Shown here one piece after another: positions 20,401 to 35,839 of a DNA stretch of 64,000 nt. Source of the DNA: Planctomycetota bacterium (GTDB lineage Bacteria > Planctomycetota > UBA1135 > GCA-002748355); the NCBI GenBank assembly GCA_026984035.1, contig JALSSW010000148.1:62001-126000 (forward strand). Direction: 5' to 3'. The stretch's first letter is position 1; the number at the start of each line of letters is the position of its first letter. The translations under genes were made by a program, and so were the position numbers. Below the pieces are notes generated by a model, which saw only the letters and a list, made by a program, of their open reading frames with translations, was not told the DNA's origin and did not search any database.

Positions 20401-21156
20401 TTACAGGGAAAGCCCGAAATCCTCCCGAAGGATGGAGCGGAGATCATAAAAATCTCGAATCTCGTAGTCTGGTTTGCTTTTTCCCTTCGTCCGAGAATGT
20501 CTCCCTGAACGCCTGTTCCATACCGTGATCATCCCGAGGGAGTTGCAGGGATCGACATCGTTTTCAGGGTGATCCCCGACATACATAGTCCGTTCCGGGC
20601 GAAGATCGAGGGATTCCAGGACGTGTTGATACAGCTTTGGATTTGGTTTACTGATGCCCACCTGATCGGTGATGAAAATTGCGCCAGGTGTCAAAAATTC
20701 ATGGATGTGCAGGCGGATGATCTTCTCAGCTTGTTTTACTCGAAGCCCGGCTGAAATGATCCCCCGAATGAGATTTAGATCGGCGAGGCCTTTGAGGACC
20801 TCGTAGACATCATCGTAGACTTTGAACTCCCGAAATTTCGTATCGTGGTAGGCGACCATTCCCGATGCTACCAATAGGGCTGGGTTGTGGTTGGCGAGAG
20901 ATTCAGGAGGAAGTCGGAGAAGAAGTTTGTCGAAGTGCTGCCCGTAGTTGGAGGAGAATTCTTCTACAACTTCACCGAGCTCCTTAAGAATCCGATCCTT
21001 ATCCCCCTGGAGCCCGGTCTGTATCATTGCCTCTACGGCTGAACGCCGCGCCTTCTCTGCAAAGACCGAGGTCGAAAAAAGAGTATCGTCAATATCAAAA
21101 AAGATCGCATCCAGCCCCGCTGGTGCATGTTCATCTTGTGAGGCAGTTTTTTGCAT
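20401..21156 (-). CDS. HAD-superfamily phosphatase
   Basis: A hydrolase of 251 residues from the ATG at 21156. Motif I is FFDIDDTLF with the nucleophile and acid/base aspartates, motif II is the serine in ISAGL, motif III is the lysine in GISKPNPKLY, and motif IV is YVGDHPENDVD. The helical cap between motifs I and II places it in subfamily IA. Such enzymes dephosphorylate small metabolites, and the substrate cannot be read from the sequence. An earlier in-frame start at 21228 adds 24 residues without family character. It follows the secretin gene on the same strand after 194 bp, so co-transcription is possible. Confidence 0.8.
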   Translation of the reverse strand: MQKTASQDEHAPAGLDAIFFDIDDTLFSTSVFAEKARRSAVEAMIQTGLQGDKDRILKELGEVVEEFSSNYGQHFDKLLLRLPPESLANHNPALLVASGMVAYHDTKFREFKVYDDVYEVLKGLADLNLIRGIISAGLRVKQAEKIIRLHIHEFLTPGAIFITDQVGISKPNPKLYQHVLESLDLRPERTMYVGDHPENDVDPCNSLGMITVWNRRSGRHSRTKGKSKPDYEIRDFYDLRSILREDFGLSL

Positions 21157-21350
21157 CCCTTGCAGTTTCCTTGGTCCAAACCCGATTCGATGAGCAAGCG
21201 ACTCTGTGGGCAAACCTTTTGGCCACAATTGTGTTCATGAATAAAACGGGTTCACTCGTCTCCCATGAAGGGAGCAACAGTCAAAACCTTTGCTTTTCAA
21301 AACGTCCCGGAACAAAGGCTTGGACTCGGGGAACAGAAGGGCGAGAAGCT

Positions 21351-23975
21351 CTAGCGACCCTTCTGTGCCATGATTTCTTGAGAGTTGACAATGAAGGCTT
21401 TAACTAAAACCATCAGAGAGGAGTTTTCATCAACAACCCCCTCTTCCTTAAAGAGGAAGGAGACTAAGGGAAGTTGTGCAAGCCATGGAACCTCGGCCCT
21501 GCGTTCCCGGTTGAGCACCTCATTAAGACCACCAATCAGGACAGATCCACCATCAGGGACCTTCACCGTTGTCGCCATGCTCCGAACAGTCAACTGAGGA
21601 AACTGAATGGTTACAGGCAAAGTTGTGCCTGCGAGTGCAGTGGTAAAGGTGGGAATGGGGCGGGTAAGTTCTGCAACCGTTGGCTGAAGATCCAAGGTAA
21701 TGTGCTTCCGGTCATAAGAGATGGAGGGTCGCACATCGAGAACAACGCCATCCTGGACGACGTTTACTTCAGGGTCAGCAATAAATGCGGCTTGCGCCAC
21801 TTCCACCGTGAAATCTTGAATATAGGTGGTTTGATTAATGACCGAGATATAACCGCGTTGGCCATTCAATACTGTCAGGATTTGGGAATCCACAATCTGC
21901 ACGTTGGTCTTTTTCTCGACAGCGCGAGCCAACAGATTGAGTTGGCTATCATCGAGCAGGGTAAAGCCGAATGTGGCCCCGCCGTTCGTGGTGAGAAGCC
22001 GGCCAAGGCTGTTTTGGAAGAAGTTTTCGGTTCGTCCCCGGAAATCGCCATCCAGGCCGTCATCGTAAAAGAAACCGCTGACGGGGTGGGAGTTGACTCC
22101 TCCCGTCCCATTGTTATCCAAGCCACGGGAAGCATTGTCATCCAAACCGTTTGTGACATCATCCAAAGTGACAACCCGTCCTTTAGCATTAGCTCCACCA
22201 AGGCCACGGAAATCGACACCAAATTGTTGGAGCCAATTCCGATCCACCCGAAGGAACCTGGACTCGATGTTGACCATGCTCGAAGTGAACTTACGGAGGT
22301 CATCCAGAAACCTCGAAACTTGTTCTTGGACTTCCGGAGTATGGGTAACAATGAGGTTCGCGTCCGTGGCTTCAATCGAAACCCCCTCGTTTTCCCAAGT
22401 ACCTGGGGCAACTGCCTTTTGAACAAGGCTTGCCAACACTTCTGGATCAATCATTTTAACCGGATCGCCAATTTGACCGCCTTGGCGAGGTTGGTCCTCG
22501 GGAGCTTCTTCTCCAACAATCGGGATATCTTTGATTTGCGGGCCGGCAAAATCAGCCAAGCCAAAAGTCAGGTCTTGGATCTTATGAACCTTGAGCGTGG
22601 GTTTGCCCATGGCTTTTGCCTTGGTGGTAAGGAGGACGGCTCCATCTTCGATGGTCCAGGCTATCTCCCCCTTGCTTCTTGTGGACATCAGGTTGAGAAA
22701 ATTGCGAACCGAAAGGGGGGATTCGAGCTTCATGGTCAACACAAGCTCATTGCTGTCGATGACTTCTTGGGCTTCGGGGGTTACCAGGATGGGGAGTCCG
22801 GTAACTTTGGCCAAGTAGCTTGCAACTTCCGCATAACCACCGCTTTCATCGGTAAATTCTGCTCCTTTGGGCACGCGAAGCTCGGAGAGTTTCTTCTCCA
22901 AAGCAAGGTTATCTGGGTCTTTCTGGGTTTTGCTGCTGGAGTCCTCGGCACGAATCTTGGAAATCTTGTTCCAATATTCGGGAGTGGGCTTTACCAGAAT
23001 GTCCGTATAGGGGATTTTTTTCTCTTCATTCGCTTCTTGGAACTTTTTAAAGGCCCTGGCTTTTTCAACTAGATAGGAGTCCTGCGCTGCATTCCGAAGA
23101 GCCTTCTCACTTACGGAATAGAGGTCTCGCCCTACTCGACTTAGGGGATCAATCCGAAGGGCTTCCTCTGCGTGTTCCAGAGCAGAGCGGTAATCATGGT
23201 TTTCGAAGGCCTTTGTTCCTTTAGCGAGGTGGAAGTCTGTCCGGGCTTTGCGGCGCTGCCTTTCCAGTTCCTCCTGGCGACGCCGTTGGGCAAAAGCTTG
23301 ACGTTGAGCGTTTTCTTGGGCCTTAAGGAGAGCACTTTCTTGGGCAGCTTCAGCTTTTTTCAGAAGGGCCTCAGCCGTTTTTGGGATGTCTTTCCAATTG
23401 ATGTTGGAACCAATTTCAACTCTGAGTTCTACCTTTTTCAGCTTCCGGATCGCTTCCTCATACTTTCCGTCCCTCATATCCTGTTTTGCTTGGGAAATGA
23501 GCTGATGAGCTTCTCCAATATCTTTTTGAATTCGAAGCTCTGCGAGCTTCCTCATGTGTTCGCCGTAGGTGATCAAATCACCTTGACGTTCTCCGAGAAG
23601 TGTTAGGATCTCGTTATAGACCTTGCGCGTTTCTGGGCGGTCACGATCCAATTCAAGGGCTTTCATGGCAGCCAACTTGGCTTCTTCATAGCGATTATCT
23701 GCCATGAGCCGACGAGCCTTTTTCAAGGCGTTTTCAATAAGGAAATTCTTTTGTTGCGCGGAAAGGGTTCCCAAGCCCTGGTTTCCGGATTCGCGGGAGT
23801 GATTTCCCGTGGGATTCTCTCCTGGAGAGGTTTTGGAAGGAGATTGGGTCTCACTCTTGGCTTGTGCCTTAGATGGATTTGGGGAGTTCTCCTCTGAAGT
23901 CGCCGTACAAGAAAGCACGAGAAGGGAGAGGCCGAAAACGGGAACGGAGAGATACCGTTTGAGATCTAGGGACAT
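21351..23975 (-). CDS. TPR-secretin lipoprotein A
   Basis: An outer-membrane secretin-family protein of 874 residues from the ATG at 23975. A signal peptide ends in a lipobox (LSLLVLSC). The N-terminal part has TPR-like repeats (LMADNRYEEAKLAAMKALEL; DYRSALEHAEEALRIDP) and charged helices. A short ring-like domain follows (LPILVTPEAQEV), then a domain ending in VTHTPEVQEQVSRFLDDLRK. The C-terminal secretin region begins with ESRFLRVDRNWLQQFGVDFR and includes GVVLDVRPSIS and VPDGGSVLIGG. It carries the motif FYDDGLDGDFRGRTENFF shared with the second secretin at 31715-34465. Last gene of the TolQ/TolR locus, preceded by a 667 bp gap that may hold its own promoter. It belongs to no classical type II or III secretion operon here. 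Confidence 0.75.
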   Translation of the reverse strand: MSLDLKRYLSVPVFGLSLLVLSCTATSEENSPNPSKAQAKSETQSPSKTSPGENPTGNHSRESGNQGLGTLSAQQKNFLIENALKKARRLMADNRYEEAKLAAMKALELDRDRPETRKVYNEILTLLGERQGDLITYGEHMRKLAELRIQKDIGEAHQLISQAKQDMRDGKYEEAIRKLKKVELRVEIGSNINWKDIPKTAEALLKKAEAAQESALLKAQENAQRQAFAQRRRQEELERQRRKARTDFHLAKGTKAFENHDYRSALEHAEEALRIDPLSRVGRDLYSVSEKALRNAAQDSYLVEKARAFKKFQEANEEKKIPYTDILVKPTPEYWNKISKIRAEDSSSKTQKDPDNLALEKKLSELRVPKGAEFTDESGGYAEVASYLAKVTGLPILVTPEAQEVIDSNELVLTMKLESPLSVRNFLNLMSTRSKGEIAWTIEDGAVLLTTKAKAMGKPTLKVHKIQDLTFGLADFAGPQIKDIPIVGEEAPEDQPRQGGQIGDPVKMIDPEVLASLVQKAVAPGTWENEGVSIEATDANLIVTHTPEVQEQVSRFLDDLRKFTSSMVNIESRFLRVDRNWLQQFGVDFRGLGGANAKGRVVTLDDVTNGLDDNASRGLDNNGTGGVNSHPVSGFFYDDGLDGDFRGRTENFFQNSLGRLLTTNGGATFGFTLLDDSQLNLLARAVEKKTNVQIVDSQILTVLNGQRGYISVINQTTYIQDFTVEVAQAAFIADPEVNVVQDGVVLDVRPSISYDRKHITLDLQPTVAELTRPIPTFTTALAGTTLPVTIQFPQLTVRSMATTVKVPDGGSVLIGGLNEVLNRERRAEVPWLAQLPLVSFLFKEEGVVDENSSLMVLVKAFIVNSQEIMAQKGR

Positions 23976-24642
23976 CCGATAAGCCTTTGGAAGCCAGGAT
24001 CTGAAGAAAGGAAGCCCATCCCTTCCCCCCGCTTGCTGGAAGTGGAAAGTAGAGGGCTGATGACCCATATCTTTCAGACCGTGGGACGTTCAAGAACAGA
24101 AAAATCAAGAATTTGCGAAAAACGCCTCGCAAACAAACCCAGGGGGGAGGGCAACCCCGTTTTATCCGAAACCTACCCCAAGGATAGGATCCGGATGGAA
24201 TACGATGCTGAAAAATTAGCAGAGGATGGGGCGGCGGAAAAGATGTTTTTCCAGGCTTTCCTCATGAAGGGTCTTGGGACCCAAAGATGGTTTCAAGGCC
24301 CCCTGCCTCTTCGTGATCCTTCTCCTCCATGAGAATGCCTTTGGTCCATCCCGGAGGATGATTTAAACACTTTTTGCTTGTTCCCAAATCCATGGGACTC
24401 AAGCGGTGGGGGGGGGTGGGAGAAGGCTTCTTGGAGCCCGAAGCCTTCCTCAAAAGCTTTGCTTCAAGGTTTGGAGGACTTTGATGAATGCTGAGGAGGG
24501 AATCCCCTTAGTGGATCGCGCTGCAAAGGTTCGGCAGGATGAACCCTTAAGCCTGATCCTTTGTCAGAAAGAGGAAACAGACTTATGGGAAAAAGCAAAA
24601 ACAAAGATCAAAAGTCCAAGGAAAGGTCCTCTTCTTTGTGGT
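23976..24642. other. 667 bp gap between the second tolR and secretin A
   Basis: No convincing gene: the short open frames here lack family features. A perfect 9 bp inverted repeat, GAAGGCTTC at 24422-24430 and GAAGCCTTC at 24440-24448 (9-base loop), could be a terminator stem after the tolR gene, although no T-tract follows it on the minus strand. A run of nine G residues lies at 24408-24416. The space is large enough for a promoter for the secretin gene, but I cannot point to a clear one. Confidence 0.5.
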
Positions 24643-25203
24643 TTATTTGCGTTTCCCGCGTTTTGCCCTCTGCTGGGCTCGTGTTCCTTCGCCACCTCCG
24701 AAGGTGATTTCTTCGAATTTGGCATCGAGAGCGATGTCGACTACGGCTGTCACATCTCCATAGGTCACACCCGGCCCAGCTTTGATGGTGATCGGCTTCG
24801 TCTTCATCGTTTTAGTTTTAGGGTCCAAAACTTTCTTTTTCGCCTGTTTACGAAGCTCTTTTTCCAAACCCGGAATGGAGCTGACCTTTTTTGGCCCAAT
24901 GTACCAATAGACCCGGTGTCCGATTAACTCAAAGCGACGTTGGTTATTGGCATAAACCGTATTGGTCATTTTCTTTTTCCCCCAACCTCCCTTGGGGCAA
25001 ACAATCCGGATATCGAGTTTATCCATGGGGGGAGCCTTACTCGTGTTGACACCAACGTCTTTGGGAAGGTTGGCAGCCAATTTCCCCTCGAGAGTCTTAA
25101 ATTCAAGGCAAAGGAAGAAGATGATGATCAAAAAGGTGACGTCGATCATCGGCGTCATGTCCATTTTAACATCGCCTTCGAGCTTTCTTTTTTTTCTAGC
25201 CAT
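24643..25203 (-). CDS. ExbD/TolR-family protein 2
   Basis: A 186-residue inner-membrane protein. A short basic N-terminus (MARKKRKLEGD) leads into a single transmembrane helix beginning MDMTPMIDVTFLIIIFF. D21 is the conserved proton-path aspartate of ExbD/TolR/MotB. The periplasmic part ends with YGDVTAVVDIALDAKFEEIT, the usual ExbD ending, and has a longer central insert plus a basic tail. It would form the ion channel with the TolQ homologue at 26079-26837. It is separated by 85 bp from the first TolR-like gene. Confidence 0.88.
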   Translation of the reverse strand: MARKKRKLEGDVKMDMTPMIDVTFLIIIFFLCLEFKTLEGKLAANLPKDVGVNTSKAPPMDKLDIRIVCPKGGWGKKKMTNTVYANNQRRFELIGHRVYWYIGPKKVSSIPGLEKELRKQAKKKVLDPKTKTMKTKPITIKAGPGVTYGDVTAVVDIALDAKFEEITFGGGEGTRAQQRAKRGKRK

Positions 25204-25288
25204 GATGTTTCCTTTTCACCCCCCCCGGGGGGCATTACAGCTTTTTCCTCGTAAAAGGGAGCCGTAAAAGCGGTTTTTCAATACTTCC

Positions 25289-25801
25289 TTACTTGGAGGG
25301 TTTCTTTTTACTGTCAGCGTCTTTGGGTTCACCCACCGCGAGTTCCACTTTCCAAATCAGGATCTTCTGGTTTCCGCAAAGCTCCATGATCTTCGCAATA
25401 TGATGCATCTCTGTCCATCGATCAGCCCGGATCAAAAGAGCGTCCTGAGGAAGGACCCTTTTCAAATCAGGATCCATTTTTTTTACCATCAAAGTGTTGG
25501 CAAAATAGTCCAGGAGCTTGAGCAACTTGGAATAATTTTCCCCATCACTGGGTTGCCAAAAGACCTTGGTTCGGTAGACGACGGTTCCGTCTTGTCGGAC
25601 ATTGAGGATGGGACGCTTCCGTCCAGGTTCAGGCTCATCGGGGATGGCATGGATGGCCTTTGGCAGGACCAAAGGTTCGAGCTCTTTGTTTTGGAGATCG
25701 ATGATGAGGAAAAAGAAGATGATCAACTGAAAAATACAGTCGATCATGGGCGTCATGTCCATGTCGGTTTGATTTGAAACAGCGCGACTTCGTCTACTCA
25801 T
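25289..25801 (-). CDS. ExbD/TolR-family protein 1
   Basis: A 170-residue inner-membrane protein with the same plan as its neighbour: a short N-terminus, the transmembrane segment MDMTPMIDCIFQLIIFFFL with the proton-path aspartate D21, and a periplasmic domain with QDALLIRADRWTEMHHIAKI and LCGNQKILIWKVELAV. Two different TolR-type proteins beside one TolQ-type protein suggest a heteromeric motor. The same stoichiometry of genes is known from the Myxococcus AglRQS gliding motor. Confidence 0.88.
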   Translation of the reverse strand: MSRRSRAVSNQTDMDMTPMIDCIFQLIIFFFLIIDLQNKELEPLVLPKAIHAIPDEPEPGRKRPILNVRQDGTVVYRTKVFWQPSDGENYSKLLKLLDYFANTLMVKKMDPDLKRVLPQDALLIRADRWTEMHHIAKIMELCGNQKILIWKVELAVGEPKDADSKKKPSK

Positions 25802-26078
25802 CCTTATTCACCTGATTTTTGAAAGCGACCAAAAGAGGCTTTCCACTCATCCCAACTGCAACAGGAAGGATCCCTTTCCAGGACTTTCTTACCAACATCT
25901 GGGAACTAACGGGGACGACATTGAATGGCCAAAAGAACCCTTCCAGGTTCGTCCATCCCTGAAAGGTTAAAGAAACGCATCGTTTCCAAGACGGTTCAAG
26001 CATAAAGGTGGGGGGGAGCCCCAAACCGTTTAGAGGACAGGTTTGGAAAAACTTCCCTGACCCAAAGCTTGTCCTCAA
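25794..26078 (-). CDS. Doubtful 94-residue frame filling the TolQ-TolR1 gap
   Basis: An open frame starts directly after the stop of the TolQ-like gene and overlaps the TolR1 start by 8 bp, so it would fit an operon. The translation (ending KNQVNKDE) has no recognisable domain, signal or repeat. It could be a real small gene or non-coding spacer; I lean to non-coding. Apart from this frame the 277 bp shows nothing I can name. Confidence 0.2.
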   Translation of the reverse strand: MRTSFGSGKFFQTCPLNGLGLPPTFMLEPSWKRCVSLTFQGWTNLEGFFWPFNVVPVSSQMLVRKSWKGILPVAVGMSGKPLLVAFKNQVNKDE

Positions 26079-26837
26079 TTATTCGTCTTTTGAGCGGAAA
26101 CGTTCAAAGAGTTCCTCCACCATCCCACCGATTTCAATGGAAGCCATTGTGACTCGGTTCCGAAGGAACACATAAACGGTGGTCACAGGAATGGCGACAA
26201 CGAGACCAAGCAGGGTTGTAATCAATGCTCCCTTAATACCTGCAGCGAGATCGTTAGGCTTAACGGATGGCTTTAAGGCGATTTCACCAAAGGCCGCCAC
26301 CATACCATTCACAGTACCAAGCAAACCCATCATGGGGGAGATTGCCGCAATCAAAGAAAGCCAGCCGATTTTATTTCCCAGCTGAACATCTTCTTCTTCT
26401 GCCGCCTCTTGGAAGGCCGTGGCGATCACGTTGTAGTTATGACCCAGCTTATCGAGGCCGGCTGCCACAACATTGGTTAAGTAGCAAGGCTCAGCCTCGC
26501 ACACATCCATCGCCTCGTCAAATTTCCCTTCATCAAACAGGGCCTCCAGCTCTTCCTGGAGATGAGGGGGAGCAAGCTTTTCACGTTTGATAGACATGAA
26601 GTCTTCGATGATCAAGGCAAGCGCCACAATGGAGACCAAGATAATAATATAACCGATCACCCCCGCACTCTTCAGAATATCTTCGAGAAGGGATGGGGCT
26701 GTTTTTTTGGCCGTGCTGGCTGCACCTTCTTGTGCGAAGGCAGAGGAAATGGCGAAGCCTGTAGAGGCCACGATGGTCATTGCGAAAAGGGAAAGGCCGT
26801 TCATTCGACCTTTGAAAAGAGGAGAAGGGATTTTCAT
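26079..26837 (-). CDS. MotA/TolQ/ExbB proton channel protein with N-terminal signal-like extension
   Basis: A 252-residue membrane protein. The first hydrophobic stretch looks like a cleavable signal (MTIVASTGFAISSAFAQEG). Then come three ExbB/TolQ membrane helices: IGYIIILVSIVALALIIEDF, the segment SLIAAISPMMGLLGTVNGMV with the GLLGTVxGM signature, and ALITTLLGLVVAIPVTTVYV. It uses the proton gradient with TolR/ExbD partners to do work in the periplasm. The alternative start at 26804 gives a more compact signal. It is the first gene of the tolQ-tolR-tolR group. Confidence 0.88.
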   Translation of the reverse strand: MKIPSPLFKGRMNGLSLFAMTIVASTGFAISSAFAQEGAASTAKKTAPSLLEDILKSAGVIGYIIILVSIVALALIIEDFMSIKREKLAPPHLQEELEALFDEGKFDEAMDVCEAEPCYLTNVVAAGLDKLGHNYNVIATAFQEAAEEEDVQLGNKIGWLSLIAAISPMMGLLGTVNGMVAAFGEIALKPSVKPNDLAAGIKGALITTLLGLVVAIPVTTVYVFLRNRVTMASIEIGGMVEELFERFRSKDE

Positions 26838-27170
26838 TGCCTTGGAATCTCTCCGTGTATTGCGGAAAGCAGGCTCTGGGGATCCCCCGGAAGTCTTGCT
26901 TTCCTGGCTCGTAAAAAAAGTCTCAAGAGGCTTAAGAATTCATGAAAGCAGAGTCGCAAAACCTACCTTGGTCCTCTGGATACGGACTGTCGGAAATTTT
27001 TGCATCTCGAAAAAAAGTTCTTCCCGGGGCTTGGGAAATCAAAGAATAAGATTCTGGCCTGGATGACCTCCGATGAAAAGAGGTGATCCAGAAGTTTTGT
27101 GCAAACTCCCACAAGATTGGAAGGGGAGAAGGGGGCAAAGGGCTCTCGGAAGGGGTGTGGGAAAGAGAAA
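26838..27170. other. 333 bp gap upstream of the TolQ-like gene
   Basis: No gene seen. It probably contains the promoter of the tolQ-tolR-tolR group and holds the terminator-like hairpin listed at 26913-26936. Confidence 0.4.
26913..26936 (-). terminator. Weak intrinsic terminator-like hairpin
   Basis: On the minus strand CTTAAG-CCT-CTTGAG (26936-26922) forms a 6 bp stem including one G-U, followed by AC and seven T residues (26919-26913). It lies 235 bp after the stop of the TPR gene at 27171 and before the TolQ-like start. If real it would separate the TPR genes from the tolQ group. The stem is weak. Confidence 0.3.
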
Positions 27171-28472
27171 TCATTTCTTTTTTAGCATGGCTTGGGCCTT
27201 GATTCCCCAGGGACTGTTTGGGAATCCTTGGGCAACATCCTCCAAAAGAAGGGTGCTGCGAACTCCAAAATCGTTTCCTTCCCCCTTTTTTCCTAAAAGA
27301 AGAATGAGTTTGGCCAAGAGATACCGGGCTTTAGCTGTTGCATCGCTGTTATGGATGTCTGTAGCCGAAACTTGGCTAAAGAGGATTTGAGCTTTTCGGA
27401 GAAGTCCTTGATCCTTTTCTTCTTTTCCCATTTCAAAGAGGGCTTGCCCCTCTCCACACTGAGCAGCAGGAAAAAGGAGGCTTTTGGGGCCTGCTTTTGT
27501 TTGAAGGTTGGCGAAGTAGCGGCGAGCATCTTTGAAACGCCCCTCGGAAATGTAGCATTCTCCCTCTCCAACCTTTGCTGCAACTAGGAGAGCCTGAATC
27601 TTGAGGTCGCCATTTTTGGCCAAAGACGACAAACTGGTGGAAGCAGAGAGATAGGCGCCACGAGCCTTTTGAAACTTCTTCATTTGGACAAGAGCCCTTC
27701 CCTTACCAAAGGTCCCACGAGCCGACCAAGCTGGGCTCAGGCTTTTTTCATTGGCGAGTTTGTCGAGTTTGTCAAAAACAGCCAGAGCTTCTTTGGGCTT
27801 TTTTGCCAAAAGAAGCACATCCCCAAGGAGTTGATACCCTTCTGGGGTCCTTCGGTGAGCAGGGTTCTTTTTGAGCCAGGCTTGCAAAGCTGAAATAGCA
27901 GCATCAGCTTGAGAGGGATTCCCTTGAGCATGGAGAGTTAATGCCTTCGCAGCGCGAAATTCACTTTCAGCCTTGAGAGGAGCGCGGGAGGAGTTAGAAG
28001 CGGCATCCTCAAAGAGATTCGCCGCAAGATGATATTCCCCGCGTTCTTCGGCAAGAACAGCACGTTGAAAAGAATCGGGAATAGGATTCCAGTCAATGGA
28101 GAGGACTTCATCGGAAGGTACGGTGTTTTCCTTTCCCCCTCTCTTGTATTTCACTTCAAGGATTCCCTCTTCGAGGATTTCGACATTGCGAATCGCTTGT
28201 CCGCCGATTTTCCGGATCTGATCTCTCGCCTTGCCCTTTTTTTGCCAAACTCCAGGCTCCACGCGATATTTTCCCGGAAAATCCTTTCCAGAAGAAAGCC
28301 CGAGGATTTCCTTCGGAGAAATGCAAGGGAGAGAACTCAGCGTAAAGAGGGGGAATAAAATAAGACCTAGTCGTTGAAAGGATGTATTCATTCGCGTCGA
28401 TGTCTGGTTTGAAAGCGATGGAATCGCTATCCCGAAAGGCTTCCTGGAGATTATAGGGAAGTTACGTTTCAT
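27171..28472 (-). CDS. Exported TPR-repeat protein (433 residues)
   Basis: The protein is made mostly of helical TPR-like repeats (for example AVLAEERGEYHLAANLFEDA; PEGYQLLGDVLLLAKKPKEA; GECYISEGRFKDARRYFANL). A hydrophobic export signal lies at residues 33-50 (LGLILFPLFTLSSLPC). Two starts are possible. The ATG at 28472 overlaps the stop of the upstream TPR gene by 4 bp, typical of coupled translation, but puts 27 residues before the signal. The ATG at 28391 gives a normal signal peptide. It probably works in the periplasm or at the outer membrane as a scaffold with the 958-residue TPR protein; no enzymatic motif is present. Confidence 0.7.
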   Translation of the reverse strand: MKRNFPIISRKPFGIAIPSLSNQTSTRMNTSFQRLGLILFPLFTLSSLPCISPKEILGLSSGKDFPGKYRVEPGVWQKKGKARDQIRKIGGQAIRNVEILEEGILEVKYKRGGKENTVPSDEVLSIDWNPIPDSFQRAVLAEERGEYHLAANLFEDAASNSSRAPLKAESEFRAAKALTLHAQGNPSQADAAISALQAWLKKNPAHRRTPEGYQLLGDVLLLAKKPKEALAVFDKLDKLANEKSLSPAWSARGTFGKGRALVQMKKFQKARGAYLSASTSLSSLAKNGDLKIQALLVAAKVGEGECYISEGRFKDARRYFANLQTKAGPKSLLFPAAQCGEGQALFEMGKEEKDQGLLRKAQILFSQVSATDIHNSDATAKARYLLAKLILLLGKKGEGNDFGVRSTLLLEDVAQGFPNSPWGIKAQAMLKKK

Positions 28473-31345
28473 GGCTTCAACCTCAGGAAGAGTCTGTAGA
28501 TTTTTTTGCCTTCAGCCCCCAAGCCCTTGAGGGTCTCGAAATCATCTGTTGAGTTGGCAATATTGAACAAACTCTTGGCGAAGTCGAGATAGTCTGAGTT
28601 GCCCTTTCTGCTTGCCTTTAAGGCCATATCCAAGCAATCCAGATAGAATCGGTACCAAGGAAGGCTGTATTTTTTTACTTTTTTGGATTGGATATAGCGC
28701 CGGTAACCCTTTTCGCCCCAGAGAAGGTCGTATGCTTCTTCAAAGCGCTCTAAACCTCCAGGGTTAATAATCCGTCCATCTTGATCCATGTCTATCCATC
28801 CCCCCAGAGCCCGGGCCTTGAGAAGTTTTAATTGGTAGCTCTTGGGGCGGAGTTTGATGGCGTCATTCAGAAGCTTTAAGGCTTTCCGGAACTCCATTTT
28901 TCTGAGGAGGATTTCTGCAAGTTCAGGCTTAATGAACTTGTTGATTTTGCTCTTTTCTTTTGGAGAGTTTTCAAAAACTTGAATAATTTTCTGGAGGAAG
29001 AGTTCCGCCTGGTCCCAATCTTTGATTTCAGAAGCAAGCTTCGCTGCCTTACGAAGAAGCGCGTAATCGGGGCTTTTTTCATTTTGCAAATAGGTTCGTG
29101 CAAAACTAAGCGTCTTCAACACATCTAACTTAAATCGTTTTCGGATTTCAATGAGGTCCTTTTCCGCTGCTGGGTCCTTGGCGGCTTTGTCTTCAAGGGC
29201 CTTCATTTCCTTTCGAATTTCTGATACCCGGCCATTTCTTGCAGAAAAAAGAACCATTGCTGCTTGAGAAAGTTGGGGAGATTTGGGGAAATCCTTGGTG
29301 AACCTTTGGTATTCAAGTTCGGCTGTTTCAATCTGCTCCAAACCCACATACCCCCGGATCAAATAAAAGGAGGCTAGCTGGGCAAAGGAAGCCATTGAGG
29401 TATTGCCCTTGTATTTCTCCCGGAATCCACGAAAGGACTCAATAATTTTCTTGAGCTTTGTTGGGTCGGGTTTGTGGCCCTTCATTTTGCCCGTTCCTAG
29501 AGCTTCTTCAGCATTCATGAGACCTAGGTAGAAGCGGGCTTGACCAATGGCGATTTCTCGCACAGAAATCCGTTGCGTTTCGCTGGGGGGGAGTTTGTTG
29601 TAGGGGTCGTTTACATACTTTAAGAACTTCTTGAGTTCCTTTCGGGCGCTGTCAAAGTCCTTAAGTTTGTAGTAGACGATGGCCTTGTAAACCGGAACTA
29701 AGTCAAAACGGATAAAGTCCTTTCCAATCTGGGCTAGAGGACGGAGAGCCTTTTTGGGATCACGACTGTCAAGGGCAGCCTGCACTTTGTTCCAAAGGAT
29801 TCGGTTCCGACTTCTGCCTCCCGTACTGACAGCGATGCGATTGGCTTCTTCCTCCAAAGCCTTAAAGAAAGGATCCTTGGTTGCCTTTTTTTTCATACGG
29901 ATGACGCCAACGAGCCTGTCCACAATGGCTGAGGCAAAGGCTTCATCTGTGTGGCGAAAATTCTTGAGGCCTTCCCTGAAGGCAAAGAAAGCTTCAAGCA
30001 GCCTTCCTTGGCGCCTGAAGGCATCTCCCATTTTGCCCCAAGATCGGAGGCCGTATTTATTTTTCTCTTCTTCCGTTTTGAGGGCAGCAAGGACCTTTTT
30101 GAAGCCTTCAATGGCCTGTCGGTTTTTTCCTGATTGGAAATCTCCAGAAGCCGCCTGATAGAGAGCCTCTGCGCTAATGTTACCTCCCGCGACGGTAAGG
30201 ATCTGCTTGATGAGTTCCTTGGCCTTGAGACCAATAAAATCGGTGGGGTGCCTTCGTGCTACCTTGCGAGCTGTTTCGAGGGCCTGGTTGATGTTTTGCT
30301 GAGAACCGGTGTCAACAAGTGCTTGGGCCCCATTGAGCAAGACCTGGTCTCCAAGATTGAAGCTGGGATCCCTCTCGAACTCTTTGGAAATTGTTTTGTA
30401 GTTTTTTAGGTGTTTGAGGACCTCTTTGGTTTTTCCTTCTCGAAGGAGAACTTCTGTTGTTTTTACGTATGCCCGTTCCAAGATGTTGAAGAGCAAAGCC
30501 CCTTGTGCGGGAGTCACTGGGTTGTCCTGGTCTCTCAATCGCTCGGAAACAATTTCAACCGTATCGTTAAATTGAGAGATGGCCATTTCGGTATCACCGA
30601 GAACATCCTGGCATTGAGCGATTTCCAAAAGACCAATCATTCCAAGCGGGGTCTCTTCTCCCGCGTCAAGGACCATGTCCTCCAGAGTCGTCACCGCTTC
30701 CTTTACCTTAATGGTGCGGTCCTGTGGGACCACTCTTCCCCACTCCCTCTGGAGCACTCCTTTCCGGAGCCAAGAGCGATAATAAAAAAGGCGAGCTCTT
30801 GAAGCCTCTTCTCTTTTATCTTCCGTCCTGTCCATCAAATCGTTACAGGCTTGGATCCCTTTGGTGTAGACCTGAATCAATTCCTCTTGGAGAGTCTTAC
30901 GTTTATCCGGATCTTTCTCCGCTTCTTGGGCTTGCCTCAGATAATCTCCAAAAAATTCACAGGCTTCTCCTAAGTTATAAAGAACTTCAAGAGCGCCATC
31001 CTCACGGCCATATTGAGCTAAGTAATCTTCAAATTTTTGGAGAGCTTTCTGGAGGACTTGGCGGCGCCGATCAAGGTCTGGAATCCTTTTGGCTCCGAGA
31101 TAGAGAATCTCAGCTTCAAGCTGGGCCAGAAGTTGATCATCCAGTGCACCTGAAGAGTTCTTCCTTAACTGATTCAATGCATCTTTGGCGAGGTCAACGA
31201 ATCCCCAATCTTTCGCCAATTTCCGGATGAAGCTCACTTCTTTCTGAATGGCCTCTTTCTTTGCCTCAGTTTGCGCCGAAAGGGGGGCGGCAAGAAAAGA
31301 AAAAAGGAGGAGGGGAATTGCGACTCGCAGGGATCGAGGAATCAT
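28469..31345 (-). CDS. Large exported TPR-repeat protein (958 residues)
   Basis: From the ATG at 31345 the protein begins with a classic signal peptide (RVAIPLLLFSFLAAPLSAQ). Nearly the whole mature chain then consists of TPR-like helical pairs, including TEVLLREGKTKEVLKHLKNY, KMGDAFRRQGRLLEAFFAFR, ELEYQRFTKDFPKSPQLSQA and ILLRKMEFRKALKLLNDAIK. Such solenoids act as periplasmic binding scaffolds. It overlaps the next TPR gene by 4 bp at most and lies between the two halves of the secretin/TolQR locus. An earlier in-frame start at 31429 is less likely, because it would bury the signal. I recognise no specific family. Confidence 0.75.
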   Translation of the reverse strand: MIPRSLRVAIPLLLFSFLAAPLSAQTEAKKEAIQKEVSFIRKLAKDWGFVDLAKDALNQLRKNSSGALDDQLLAQLEAEILYLGAKRIPDLDRRRQVLQKALQKFEDYLAQYGREDGALEVLYNLGEACEFFGDYLRQAQEAEKDPDKRKTLQEELIQVYTKGIQACNDLMDRTEDKREEASRARLFYYRSWLRKGVLQREWGRVVPQDRTIKVKEAVTTLEDMVLDAGEETPLGMIGLLEIAQCQDVLGDTEMAISQFNDTVEIVSERLRDQDNPVTPAQGALLFNILERAYVKTTEVLLREGKTKEVLKHLKNYKTISKEFERDPSFNLGDQVLLNGAQALVDTGSQQNINQALETARKVARRHPTDFIGLKAKELIKQILTVAGGNISAEALYQAASGDFQSGKNRQAIEGFKKVLAALKTEEEKNKYGLRSWGKMGDAFRRQGRLLEAFFAFREGLKNFRHTDEAFASAIVDRLVGVIRMKKKATKDPFFKALEEEANRIAVSTGGRSRNRILWNKVQAALDSRDPKKALRPLAQIGKDFIRFDLVPVYKAIVYYKLKDFDSARKELKKFLKYVNDPYNKLPPSETQRISVREIAIGQARFYLGLMNAEEALGTGKMKGHKPDPTKLKKIIESFRGFREKYKGNTSMASFAQLASFYLIRGYVGLEQIETAELEYQRFTKDFPKSPQLSQAAMVLFSARNGRVSEIRKEMKALEDKAAKDPAAEKDLIEIRKRFKLDVLKTLSFARTYLQNEKSPDYALLRKAAKLASEIKDWDQAELFLQKIIQVFENSPKEKSKINKFIKPELAEILLRKMEFRKALKLLNDAIKLRPKSYQLKLLKARALGGWIDMDQDGRIINPGGLERFEEAYDLLWGEKGYRRYIQSKKVKKYSLPWYRFYLDCLDMALKASRKGNSDYLDFAKSLFNIANSTDDFETLKGLGAEGKKIYRLFLRLKP

Positions 31346-31714
31346 CTTAAAATACGGTACCCGTCTGCTGAGGCCATGTTCATTTGGTCCTTCCAAGGGA
31401 GCACTGGAGGGACAAGGGTGCAAAGACACCCAGAACGATTTGAAAAAGGAACGGAATATTCTAGCGGAGGTTCACTCCAGGACCAGGAGCTGCTCGGAAA
31501 GCTTTTGAATTCCTTGGTCATTGTGCCTCCATGCTGGTGGCTGAAAGGGCGCTGATCCTTTGCTGCATTCTTCCTTGAGAAAAACCCCGAGAGATCTCGG
31601 CCTGGAGGAAATACAATTCTGAAAATCCGAAACCCACTCGAGTTTCGTTAATTCGAGAAGACTGCATAGCCAAGAGGCTAGGCGCCCTAGCCTCTTGGCT
31701 TGTGTGGAGTGGGC
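31346..31714. other. 369 bp gap after secretin B
   Basis: No gene seen. It contains the strong hairpin at 31668-31700 directly after the secretin stop, and presumably a promoter for the two TPR genes. Confidence 0.45.
31668..31700 (-). terminator. 15 bp perfect hairpin just after secretin B
   Basis: AGCCAAGAGGCTAGG (31668-31682) and its exact complement (31686-31700) enclose a 3-base loop. The hairpin begins 14 bp after the minus-strand stop of the secretin gene. No U-tract follows on the minus strand, so besides Rho-independent termination it could be an RNA 3'-end stabiliser that lowers, but does not abolish, read-through into the TPR genes. Confidence 0.6.
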
Positions 31715-34465
31715 TTAGCGTTCCTCACTCAGGTCAGGCTCCGATTCGCTAGGAATAATGATTTTTGCGCGAAGAAGAATCAAAATCTTCTTGTTGGCGT
31801 TATAGGTTCCCTTCTTACGGAAGAAAAACCCAACAAAAGGTATGTCTTTTAGGATCGGAACTCCGGACTCAAACTTTTGTTTTTGAGTGGACTTCATTCC
31901 ACCGAGGAGCAGCTTGCCGTTGTCGGGCATTGTTATGGTCGTACGAACCTTCTGAACCGTTAACCTGGGTATCTGGATCGAAACAGGTTGTCCTACACCT
32001 AAGGTGGTCGTGAAGGTGGGGATTGGTTGCGCCAAAGTGGCCACAGTGGGGCGAAGTTCCATTAAAATAAAACGCCGGTCAGCAGAGACCACGGGACGAA
32101 CATCCAGAACAACCCCATCCCGTATGACCCCAATCACTGGGTCGGCAACGGCGGCAGACTGAGCAATTTCGACCGAAAAGTCCCGAATGTAGGTGAATTG
32201 ACGGTTTACGGCCAGGTTGGCTCGGGCAGCGTTGTGGATCAGAAGCCGAGGGGCCGCCAGTTGCTCCACCCTCTCCTTTTTGGAGACACTTCGGAGGATT
32301 GTCTCCAATTCCGTATCGTCAAGGAAAGTGTATTGGAAGGAGAGGCCCCCAGCGTTGGAGAGGCCCTCGGGACCTCCTCCTAGTGTTTGATCAAAGAGGT
32401 TTTCTGTGCGGCCATAGATATCTCCGTCAAGTCCATTGTCATAAAACACTCCCGGTTCAAATCCGGTTCCAATGGCACCCGGTTGCGATGCAGAAATGTT
32501 GCGTCCGAAATCGTCGAAAGCAAATCCTGCACGATTTCCATGTTTCTGGAGGCCAAGGCCTGGCTTTCCTGTGGAGGCTTGATTTCCCAAGCCTCGAATA
32601 TCGACGCCGATTTCTTCTAGGAAATTATCCTCTACGCGAAGGAATCGGGCTTCAACATCAACTTGAATCCCTGAGCTACTGCGTAAATCTTTGAGCAGAG
32701 CATCGATTTTTTTATGGACTTCGGGAGTTTGGGTGATGACCAGGGCGGTTTCGCCCGAAGGCTCAACCCCGGCTCCTTCCTTTTCCCAGCTGCTGGGATC
32801 AATGTTTGTTGTGATAATCGATTGAAGCTTATCCAAGTCGACGACCGCTGGGACCGGCTCGGGTGGCTCAGGAGCTTCCTGAGGCTCCCCGGGCCTAAGG
32901 ATCAAATCCTTACCGGGATGGTCCTTGATTTTATTGACAATTTCTCGAACGTCATAAATCACGGGGACCATGGTTCCGGCGCTTTCCTCGTCCCCAAGAA
33001 TCATGACAACGCCATCACGGATGGTCCATTGAATGGGCTTCACCCGGGCGATCAGGTCCAGTCCTTGGGCGACAGAGCGCTTCCCAAGTTTAAGATTGAG
33101 GGTTGTTGCCGATTCGTCAAGCTCCTGGGCTGCACTACTCACCAAGAAGTTCAAGCCAGTTGCTCTCCGATAAGCATCGACCCAATCCTCGATGGGTGTC
33201 TCGGTAAAGTTCTGTTGGATCACAACCTCGTTCAGTTTTTTCTGAATCAGAGCTGTGTCAGGGTCCACTGTTACCTTGGTGCTGGAAAAGGAGAGTGGTT
33301 TTCGATTCGAGATCTTTTTCCAATGCTCCAAATCCAACTTGACCGTATCGGTCTGAGTGATGTCCATCCGTTTCAGATTTTCAAAGGTTGCAGTCCATTC
33401 CTGGCGCCATTTCCTCTTCAATGAATCCATGGATTGGTCGTGTCGAGCCCGCATGGCGAGTTCTCGAAGATCCCTGGCATCCTTGTTTACCGGGTCGATC
33501 TTAAGGGCTTCATCCAAATAGCGAACCGATTGGTCATATTGCCTGCCCTGGAAGGCCAAGTTCGCCTGTTCAAAAAGATAGCGAACCCGAACCCGGCGGC
33601 GGATTCTCTCCTTTCTCTCTTCGGCTGCCAGCTTCATTCGCGCAGTGCGAGCGCTTTTTTCAGCTTGCTTTTGAATCCACTTGGTTTTCATCGCCTTTGC
33701 TTGCTTCAACTTGGCATTCAGGCGCTTCTCAAGGGCAGATCCTGGGGTGAACCAGGGAGAGTAGCGGAGGGTTAATGCAGCCCTTTGGTAATTCTCAATG
33801 GCTTTCTCGTAGTTATTTTCTTCTGCATAGAGATCACCCTTATTCTCATAGCTGCGGGCAACCGAAAAATCCTTTTGCTTTTCGATCTCAGCACGGGTCA
33901 TCGCATCCCGGCTGGCCTGTCCCAGGGAAGGCTCTCTCTCACCAAGGGCTGTTTGGGCCTTCCTAAGGAGGGAACGAGCGGCTTCATTGTTGGGGTCGAG
34001 TTTGAGGACCTCACCCGTTGCTTTGACGACATCTTCAAAAAGCCTGAGATCCCATGCTCGGCGAGCCTTTTTCAGATTTGTTTGGATCAGGAAGTTCCGA
34101 CGTTGCATTGCAGGCGATGGCTTTCCACCTTGTATTCCTTCCTGAGAATTATCCTCTCGAGCTCCTGCTTTAGAGGAATCTCCAGGTAGGGGTTGACCGG
34201 ATTCTGCGTCGATTCTTCCGGAATCCTTTTGAGAGGACTCCAGGTGAGTCTCCTGAGCTAAATCCTTTGTGGGCTGTGCTTCACCAGCAATATTCATGCT
34301 GCCGGAATCCGCATCGGCAGCACCTGAACAAGCGACCGGAAGGGTCGCAGTCAGGAACGCGCAGAGCGGGAGGGCAACCATACGAGTTGCCCACCGGGGA
34401 AGGACCACGGAAAGGGGGGAAAGGTTTTCGTTTTTTCGGCGGACCGTCAATGGGCTCTTTCTCAT
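31715..34465 (-). CDS. TPR-secretin lipoprotein B
   Basis: A 916-residue paralogue of secretin A. A long basic N-terminus precedes a signal sequence with a lipobox (PLCAFLTATLPVACSG). A low-complexity acidic linker and TPR-like repeats follow (NYEKAIENYQRAALTLRYSP; RQYDQSVRYLDEALKIDPVN). Next come a ring-like domain (FTETPIEDWVDAYRRATGLN), a domain ending in TQTPEVHKKIDALLKDLRSS, and the secretin region from ARFLRVEDNFLEEIGVDIR to FVGFFFRKKG. The motif FYDNGLDGDIYGRTENLF matches secretin A. The two are clearly related throughout but diverged, which suggests distinct or hetero-oligomeric roles. First gene of the locus. Confidence 0.75.
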   Translation of the reverse strand: MRKSPLTVRRKNENLSPLSVVLPRWATRMVALPLCAFLTATLPVACSGAADADSGSMNIAGEAQPTKDLAQETHLESSQKDSGRIDAESGQPLPGDSSKAGAREDNSQEGIQGGKPSPAMQRRNFLIQTNLKKARRAWDLRLFEDVVKATGEVLKLDPNNEAARSLLRKAQTALGEREPSLGQASRDAMTRAEIEKQKDFSVARSYENKGDLYAEENNYEKAIENYQRAALTLRYSPWFTPGSALEKRLNAKLKQAKAMKTKWIQKQAEKSARTARMKLAAEERKERIRRRVRVRYLFEQANLAFQGRQYDQSVRYLDEALKIDPVNKDARDLRELAMRARHDQSMDSLKRKWRQEWTATFENLKRMDITQTDTVKLDLEHWKKISNRKPLSFSSTKVTVDPDTALIQKKLNEVVIQQNFTETPIEDWVDAYRRATGLNFLVSSAAQELDESATTLNLKLGKRSVAQGLDLIARVKPIQWTIRDGVVMILGDEESAGTMVPVIYDVREIVNKIKDHPGKDLILRPGEPQEAPEPPEPVPAVVDLDKLQSIITTNIDPSSWEKEGAGVEPSGETALVITQTPEVHKKIDALLKDLRSSSGIQVDVEARFLRVEDNFLEEIGVDIRGLGNQASTGKPGLGLQKHGNRAGFAFDDFGRNISASQPGAIGTGFEPGVFYDNGLDGDIYGRTENLFDQTLGGGPEGLSNAGGLSFQYTFLDDTELETILRSVSKKERVEQLAAPRLLIHNAARANLAVNRQFTYIRDFSVEIAQSAAVADPVIGVIRDGVVLDVRPVVSADRRFILMELRPTVATLAQPIPTFTTTLGVGQPVSIQIPRLTVQKVRTTITMPDNGKLLLGGMKSTQKQKFESGVPILKDIPFVGFFFRKKGTYNANKKILILLRAKIIIPSESEPDLSEER

Positions 34466-34752: not shown

Positions 34753-35499
34753 TCACTCCCCGAGATTTCTATCTTTCAGAATCCTCATAGCCAGTTGAAT
34801 GTCCTTCCAAGTCTCGGCCTTGGCTTCCGGGCGCCTGAGAAGGTAAGAGGGGTGCCAAGTCACAATGAGAGGGATCCCCATAAATTGATGGGCGCAGCCC
34901 CTAAGTTTTCGCATGGGGGCTTGGGTTTTTAAGAAAAAACGTGCTGCCGTAGCCCCCAAGGCAATGAGGATTTTGGGTGCAACACAGCGAATTTGCTCCA
35001 AAAGAAAGGGGCTACACGCCTGAATCTCCTCGGGGAGGGGAGGACGATTCTTGGGGGGGCGGCATTTGAGGATGTTGGCAATGAAGGTCTCCTTTCTTGG
35101 GATCCGGATTCCCTGCTCAATAATTCGTGTAAGTAATTGCCCGGCAGGCCCCACAAAAGGGAGCCCTTGACGGTCTTCCTGGGCTCCAGGAGCTTCTCCC
35201 ACAAAAAAGATATCAGCGTCGGGGTTTCCATCGGAAAGGACCACTTGAGTTCTGGAAAGAGCCAGAGAGCAAGACTTACAGGCTTCGACCCGTTGCCGGA
35301 GGGCTTTGAGGGTTTGTCGCTTTGTGAGCTTGGTCCTTGCTTGGGTGGCAGGTTCAGTGCGGTTTTTACGGCATCCCTGTGCTTGGTCTTTGGGGAGGGA
35401 TGTCTCTGGTAAGGGAAGCAGCGGCGCATCAGGCCCAAGAATGGAAATCCAATTTTTGAGTTGATCCCGGGGAGATGGTGCTTCGGGTCGATCTGCCAT
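34753..35499 (-). CDS. Family 4 uracil-DNA glycosylase with [4Fe-4S] cluster
   Basis: A DNA repair enzyme that removes uracil from DNA, 248 residues from the ATG at 35499. Motifs are FFVGEAPGAQEDRQGLPFVG (uracil-binding and catalytic region), FIANILKCRPPKNRPP and the C-terminal TWHPSYLLR. Four cysteines fit the family 4 cluster: C74 and C77 (CKSC), C146 (KCRPP) and C162 (ACSPF). The 70 or so residues before the domain are proline-rich and variable, and a still longer frame reaches 35724, so the start is uncertain. The cluster would depend on the ISC system encoded in the same window. Confidence 0.9.
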   Translation of the reverse strand: MADRPEAPSPRDQLKNWISILGPDAPLLPLPETSLPKDQAQGCRKNRTEPATQARTKLTKRQTLKALRQRVEACKSCSLALSRTQVVLSDGNPDADIFFVGEAPGAQEDRQGLPFVGPAGQLLTRIIEQGIRIPRKETFIANILKCRPPKNRPPLPEEIQACSPFLLEQIRCVAPKILIALGATAARFFLKTQAPMRKLRGCAHQFMGIPLIVTWHPSYLLRRPEAKAETWKDIQLAMRILKDRNLGE

Positions 35500-35839
35500 A
35501 AAAGGATTTTGGGTGAATGGGCTTTGGGGTGAAAGGGGAAAAGTTGGGTTCTCATGTCTGATCCCATTCAAGGTAGAACTCCTGCTTGCCCCAATCACCC
35601 CAAGTCGCTCACCTTCTCCGTGTCGCAGGTGCATTTTCCAAGCATGAATGCAGGAGTTTTCTGAAATGGGGCTTTTCCCAAACTCGATCTGGGGAGCAAA
35701 GGGGGGTAGAATCTTTCTCTCCAAAAATGGGGGAGCTGGCCTGCTGCCTTGATTTTCTCCGGTCCCCTGAAGGGTTTCCTTTGGATGTTTCCAAAAGAGG
35801 CGGGATTCGTCCCTTTTTTATGAATAGAGAACGTTTGCA

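Follow-up and report, generated by a model that had tools for sequence, protein, structure and literature searches.

The window analysed here, a stretch of 64,000 nucleotides, belongs to a planctomycete assembly that comprises 3.8 Mb in 210 contigs and is 90% complete. Between positions 21351 and 34465, it contains seven intact genes, all on the minus strand and without any unrelated gene inside (Table 1), which are transcribed in the order TPR-secretin A (secA), long TPR protein, short TPR protein, ExbB, ExbD1, ExbD2 and TPR-secretin B (secB). A first-pass annotation, made from the sequence alone, had proposed the same seven genes, and Pfam searches confirmed their protein families; its gene order also fits, provided that its "secretin B" is taken as the gene at 31715-34465. 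The 958-residue TPR protein that it described corresponds to the 986-aa frame read from an internal ATG at 31345, a start that gives the protein a good signal peptide. The intergenic gaps are, in transcription order, 285, −4, 333, 277, 85 and 574 bp, with the short TPR gene overlapping the long one by 4 bp. Because the gaps are wide, the locus is possibly split into several transcripts, as had been claimed from gaps and hairpins together. The hairpins proved weak evidence, since 34 terminator-like sites were found versus 25 ± 5 in shuffled sequences, and promoter and terminator scans gave results near the shuffle level.

Table 1 Genes of the seven-gene cassette in the window, in transcription order
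Gene product	Position	Strand	Features
TPR-secretin A	31715..34465	-	916 aa; Pfam Secretin 4e-28 + TPR
Long periplasmic TPR protein	28469..31429	-	986 aa by mechanical start; Pfam TPR
Short TPR protein	27171..28472	-	433 aa; Pfam TPR
ExbB/TolQ-type proton-channel protein	26079..26837	-	MotA_ExbB 7.8e-25
ExbD/TolR-type protein 1	25289..25801	-	ExbD 8.4e-13; membrane aspartate in TPMID
ExbD/TolR-type protein 2	24643..25203	-	ExbD 2e-12; membrane aspartate in TPMID
TPR-secretin B	21351..24068	-	905 aa; Pfam Secretin 7.6e-25 + TPR

The secretin domains of the two outer genes score 98.5 and 87.9 bits against a curated cut-off of 27.5, and both proteins have a cysteine at the expected cleavage position of a lipoprotein signal (C46 in secA and C54 in secB) that is invariant in 20 of 20 sequences each. 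The predicted fold of secA (AF2 monomer model) comprises a disordered linker, a TPR part with a long coiled coil, N-type domains and the secretin barrel, in an overall arrangement that is uncertain at a mean pLDDT of 71; its closest fold matches in the PDB are PilQ, the lipidated BfpB, InvG and GspD. The architecture of secB is the same. No equivalog-level match (GspD, PilQ, MshL or Amuc_1098) was reached by these proteins, the best score being 118 bits against a cut-off of 750, and another 103 against 250. The 118 bits come from Amuc_1098-type type IV pilus (T4P) secretins, which match secA over both the TPR and the secretin parts. In 34 loci, the secA and secB positions form separate clades with support of 0.98-1.0. 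A single ancient duplication for all secretin pairs was nevertheless rejected, because seven loci, the most distant ones, cluster with one another (support 0.85) and for the most part have their own two clades. Judging from this branching, the duplication in these far loci may have been independent, or gene conversion may have taken place.

Concerning the inner-membrane part, the nearest relatives of ExbB among solved structures are TolQ and then ExbB, and both ExbD proteins keep, across homologues, the membrane aspartate required for proton flow. These proteins are homologues of the TolQ and TolR of Tol-Pal by their MotA_ExbB and ExbD domains, with scores below the tolQ and tolR equivalog cut-offs. 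The long TPR homologue directly follows secretin A in most relatives. The short TPR protein is predicted to consist of a small five-strand beta domain followed by a TPR solenoid (AF2, pLDDT 86); it has a weak YbgF/CpoB-like match, and a fold search with it returned generic TPR matches only. A transducer with a membrane helix of the TolA, TonB or vWA type was not found in the locus. In one related genome, a 281-aa lipoprotein that adjoins secB (L063:6128-6973, with the same protein at L076:18989-19834) joins a TPR part resembling the secB arm (30 bits, versus 1-2 bits for other TPR families) to an ExbD2-type periplasmic domain (48 bits) without a membrane helix. Such a fusion would fit a contact between the secretin arms and ExbD2; as a general feature it was rejected, being found in this one genome only.

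The first-pass annotation had named a lack of conserved grouping in relatives as grounds for abandoning its interpretation. This objection fails: a search with secA was positive in 60 of 61 relatives from the same taxonomic order (47 genera), including all 34 of the best genomes, and the single negative genome is 66% complete. In most of these genomes, a further match of lower score (secB) was obtained, as a rule on the same contig at a distance of about 10 kb. Among twenty loci read from eight families of the order, 16 have ExbB and ExbD between the two secretins in the gene order of the window. The genes nearly abut in several of them (L069, L056 and L054), and the set therefore behaves as an operon there. 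The strand is also kept in 643 of 648 cassette genes, and several median gaps are below 25 bp.

Across the phylum, 75 of 109 genomes match the secA profile at 1e-80 and 92 of 109 match ExbB at 1e-38. Of the 75 secretin-bearing genomes, 53, representing 32 family-level groups, have ExbB at most 15 kb from a TPR-secretin, versus a chance expectation of about 1% (assuming a genome of about 5 Mb that carries two secretin genes and either one or two copies of ExbB). Where two secretins occur within 16 kb of each other, ExbB is situated between them in 33 of 37 genomes. A further 20 genomes, too, mostly showed the same gene set at the loci read, so that the earlier prediction of this set in many genomes holds far beyond the order of the window. 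Four genomes at a greater distance (G064, G077, G119 and G114) have the alternative order secretin-secretin-TPR-TPR-ExbB, followed by ExbD wherever the contig or the sequence read extends far enough; the genes were rearranged, yet the set stayed together. The matches that carry a name come from planctomycete metagenome-assembled genomes, some with no title but "bacterium", and from the isolate Saltatorellus ferox Poly30, in whose complete genome the locus is present.

The secretins and the motor are not always neighbours. Seven genomes of the same order have the secretin pair without a motor between its members. Loss of the motor in these genomes was rejected as an explanation, because each of the seven has an ExbB-ExbD motor of this type at another site, accompanied by TPR genes where the contig permits. 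That this motor is a relocated orthologue is likewise unsupported, since its ExbB forms a divergent clade. The split motor loci L180-L182 and L185 additionally encode, 3' of exbD2, a protein of about 270-330 aa that has membrane helices close to either end and whose 322-aa representative has no Pfam match; in some of them, a coiled-coil protein of about 520-545 aa with a zinc ribbon is encoded as well. The complete genome G163 has ExbB and the two secretins at widely separated sites, and complete genomes of family f32 contain a TPR-TPR-ExbB-ExbD-ExbD operon and no TPR-secretin at 1e-25. Since linkage is lacking in the split genomes, G163 and f32, the two modules are separable.

The flanking genes also bear on how the linkage should be read. 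A uracil-DNA glycosylase gene upstream (34753-35724 in the window) and a HAD hydrolase gene downstream (20401-21228) are conserved alongside the cassette in dozens of loci, and in many loci of other families the HAD gene follows secB. As these cytosolic enzymes without an envelope role are conserved too, mere synteny could account for part of the linkage. Together with the separated modules and the f32 motor without secretins, this would be expected if a TPR-Tol motor and a TPR-secretin pair were independent modules that do no joint work in an old, stable neighbourhood. We regard such independence as unlikely, because the motor is inside the pair in nearly all close pairs, the rearranged loci keep the set together, the strand is conserved in almost every cassette gene and the split genomes all retain a motor of the same kind. 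In addition, the HAD gene flips strand in several loci, but the cassette genes hardly ever do. From this frequent, strand-conserved and sometimes rearranged association, we infer that coupling of the secretin and motor modules is likely, but not obligatory.

Secretins usually suggest type II secretion (T2SS) or T4P, and the first-pass annotation had stated that ATPase and platform genes for these secretins elsewhere in the genome would refute its proposal. This is the case in a formal sense only: T2SSE ATPases were found in 40 of 40 cassette genomes tested, with 11 matches in the window genome. For the same reason, a T2SSE phylogenetic profile was unusable as a test for ATPase absence. These ATPases and the Amuc_1098-type match are what one would expect if secA and secB were the outer-membrane secretins of a T4P or T2SS whose ATPase and platform are encoded at a distance. 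In the window genome, however, the T4P cluster PilM-(x)-PilO has its own secretin directly behind it and GspD directly precedes GspE in the T2SS; the cassette secretins are thus extra. Moreover, none of the loci read showed PilMNO genes close to the cassette, and ATPase, platform or pseudopilin genes were found neither in the locus nor in the loci of relatives. An assignment of secA and secB to T4P or T2SS is therefore highly improbable. The cassette secretins share with PilQ and GspD the secretin fold with N domains, lipidation with BfpB and the TPR arm with Amuc_1098, whereas they differ from T4P and T2SS secretins in being paired and linked to a proton motor rather than to those genes.

The motor half of the locus has published counterparts. 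In PVC bacteria, clusters of TPR, tolQ-like, paired tolR-like and vWA force-transducer genes with unknown function have been described (PMC12204202), so that the TPR-TolQ-TolR-TolR half is already known there, in company with a vWA transducer. The window locus resembles these clusters in having one TolQ-like protein, two different TolR-like proteins and a TPR gene; in contrast, it has two TPR-secretins and no vWA protein with an N-terminal membrane helix beside the motor. The best vWA match in the window genome (4.6e-13) covers the vWA domain only and is on a different contig, and in 17 cassette genomes no vWA match was better than 1e-20, the weaker ones again covering this domain only. Genomes of families f32 and f53 contain a full-length vWA transducer at 1e-52 or better, mostly beside ExbB. 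A strict either/or of vWA and secretins was found to be only partly true, as a TPR-TPR-ExbB-ExbD-ExbD operon accompanied by neither is also present in the f32 genome G127. We found no description of the secretin-coupled form in the literature searched, most of it outside subscription journals and preprints.

A second counterpart is the gliding machinery of Myxococcus. The Glt core consists of a long TPR protein (GltD), a short TPR protein (GltE), the TolQ homologue AglR and the two TolR homologues AglQ and AglS, and its genes are clustered in non-Deltaproteobacteria (PMC3169522). The likeness to AglRQS raised in the first-pass annotation lies in this composition, namely a clustered TolQ, two TolR and a long and a short TPR protein, and no Glt-specific family model was among the NCBIfam matches of the locus proteins. 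Secretins are absent from Agl-Glt, whereas GltC, GltG and GltA/B were not seen here. Given the shared make-up, and given that Poly30 belongs to the shape-shifting Saltatorellus clade, the cassette might be a gliding or surface-motility motor in which secretins replace GltA/B. We consider this quite improbable, since near-universal presence in the order, including genomes of 2.0-2.5 Mb, is more than gliding predicts, and neither GltC or GltG genes nor a Glt-specific model match were seen.

The locus also resembles Tol-Pal, with TolQ as the nearest solved relative of its ExbB, TolR-type partners and the weak CpoB/YbgF-like TPR match. It differs from Tol-Pal in that the locus has no TolA or Pal gene and the genome no TolB, and in having secretins and a second ExbD instead. 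TolB_N was not found in the window genome, nor in 29 of 30 planctomycetes tested, while the E. coli, Caulobacter and Bacteroides controls were all positive. A TonB-type transducer is missing from the cassette, and the Ton set of the window genome, on contig C107, has a TonB_C protein and its own ExbB proteins. By the features tested, the machine is not a member of the T2SS/T4P, Tol-Pal or Ton systems. Another contig (C95, L176:7307-9484) has consecutive genes for one MotA-type protein and two MotB-type ones, only the first of the latter with an OmpA domain.

Overall, these data suggest that the locus probably encodes one proton-driven trans-envelope machine with the lipidated TPR-secretins as its outer-membrane partner. 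The same idea in the first-pass annotation has gained support from the conservation of the gene set, and contact between secretins and motor, like the role of the machine, stays at the level of a proposal. In this model, an ExbB pentamer holding an ExbD1-ExbD2 pair would form the motor driven by the proton motive force, and the two periplasmic TPR proteins, with the TPR/coiled-coil arms of the secretins, would bridge the periplasm. The two paralogous lipidated TPR-secretins would form the outer-membrane ring or rings, whose formation we infer, on which the motor acts. The inner-membrane motor would pull on or remodel its outer-membrane partner in the fashion of Tol-Pal or Agl-Glt rather than in that of a secretion ATPase, and the force would have to leave the motor without a TolA, TonB or vWA-type transducer encoded in the locus.

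By analogy, the job of this machine might be envelope upkeep or force transmission during division or shape change in place of Tol-Pal. We put this forward tentatively, as the most likely of the jobs considered, because the motor is near-universal and kept in genomes of 2.0-2.5 Mb and because TolB is missing. A different job, a proton-driven gate for export or import, has the motor opening the secretin channel for macromolecules or an envelope polymer. The secretin domains are complete, and macromolecule uptake is a familiar planctomycete theme. In nine loci from families outside the order (L150, L151, L152, L154, L155, L158, L160, L161 and L169), a sulfatase-superfamily protein of 550-670 aa with a C-terminal TPR-like part is encoded between exbD2 and secB and could process the cargo. 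The same position is without this gene in the order of the window, where no conserved cargo gene was seen either; a TonB-like transducer is lacking and there is no sign of substrate passage, which makes the gate distinctly unlikely.

What powers the known secretin systems at the inner membrane is, to our knowledge, in every case an ATPase, an export apparatus or phage assembly. If true, a proton-driven secretin would join two machine families that have been considered separate. A bolder claim, that this is a categorically new machine in which a TolQR-type motor instead of an ATPase would run a secretin pair in many lineages, replacing Tol-Pal or gating transport, with the f32-type motor working with vWA, appears rather doubtful to us. 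Planctomycetota also lack FtsZ (PMC11032199); with FtsZ and, in nearly all genomes tested here, TolB lacking, how the outer membrane is held and constricted is a question that this widespread locus makes testable, and a shape-shifting isolate, Poly30, carries it.

Several other genes were seen in or near the cassette. In two f5 genomes (L067:11078-12742 and L069:10664-12109), a gene for a pyridoxal-dependent decarboxylase intervenes between exbD2 and secB. An MreB/actin-like gene is found near the downstream HAD gene in four loci (L057:15263-16327, L068:17228-18322, L097:11983-13050 and L063:1-702), with a Pfam MreB_Mbl match of 4e-16 in L057, and may be a relative of "saltatorellin", the actin-like protein that has been reported for the Saltatorellus clade. 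In the window itself, a divergently transcribed gene (35840-38653, plus strand) encodes a protein of 937 aa in which membrane helices precede a long TPR part; this protein is also present near the locus in many relatives.
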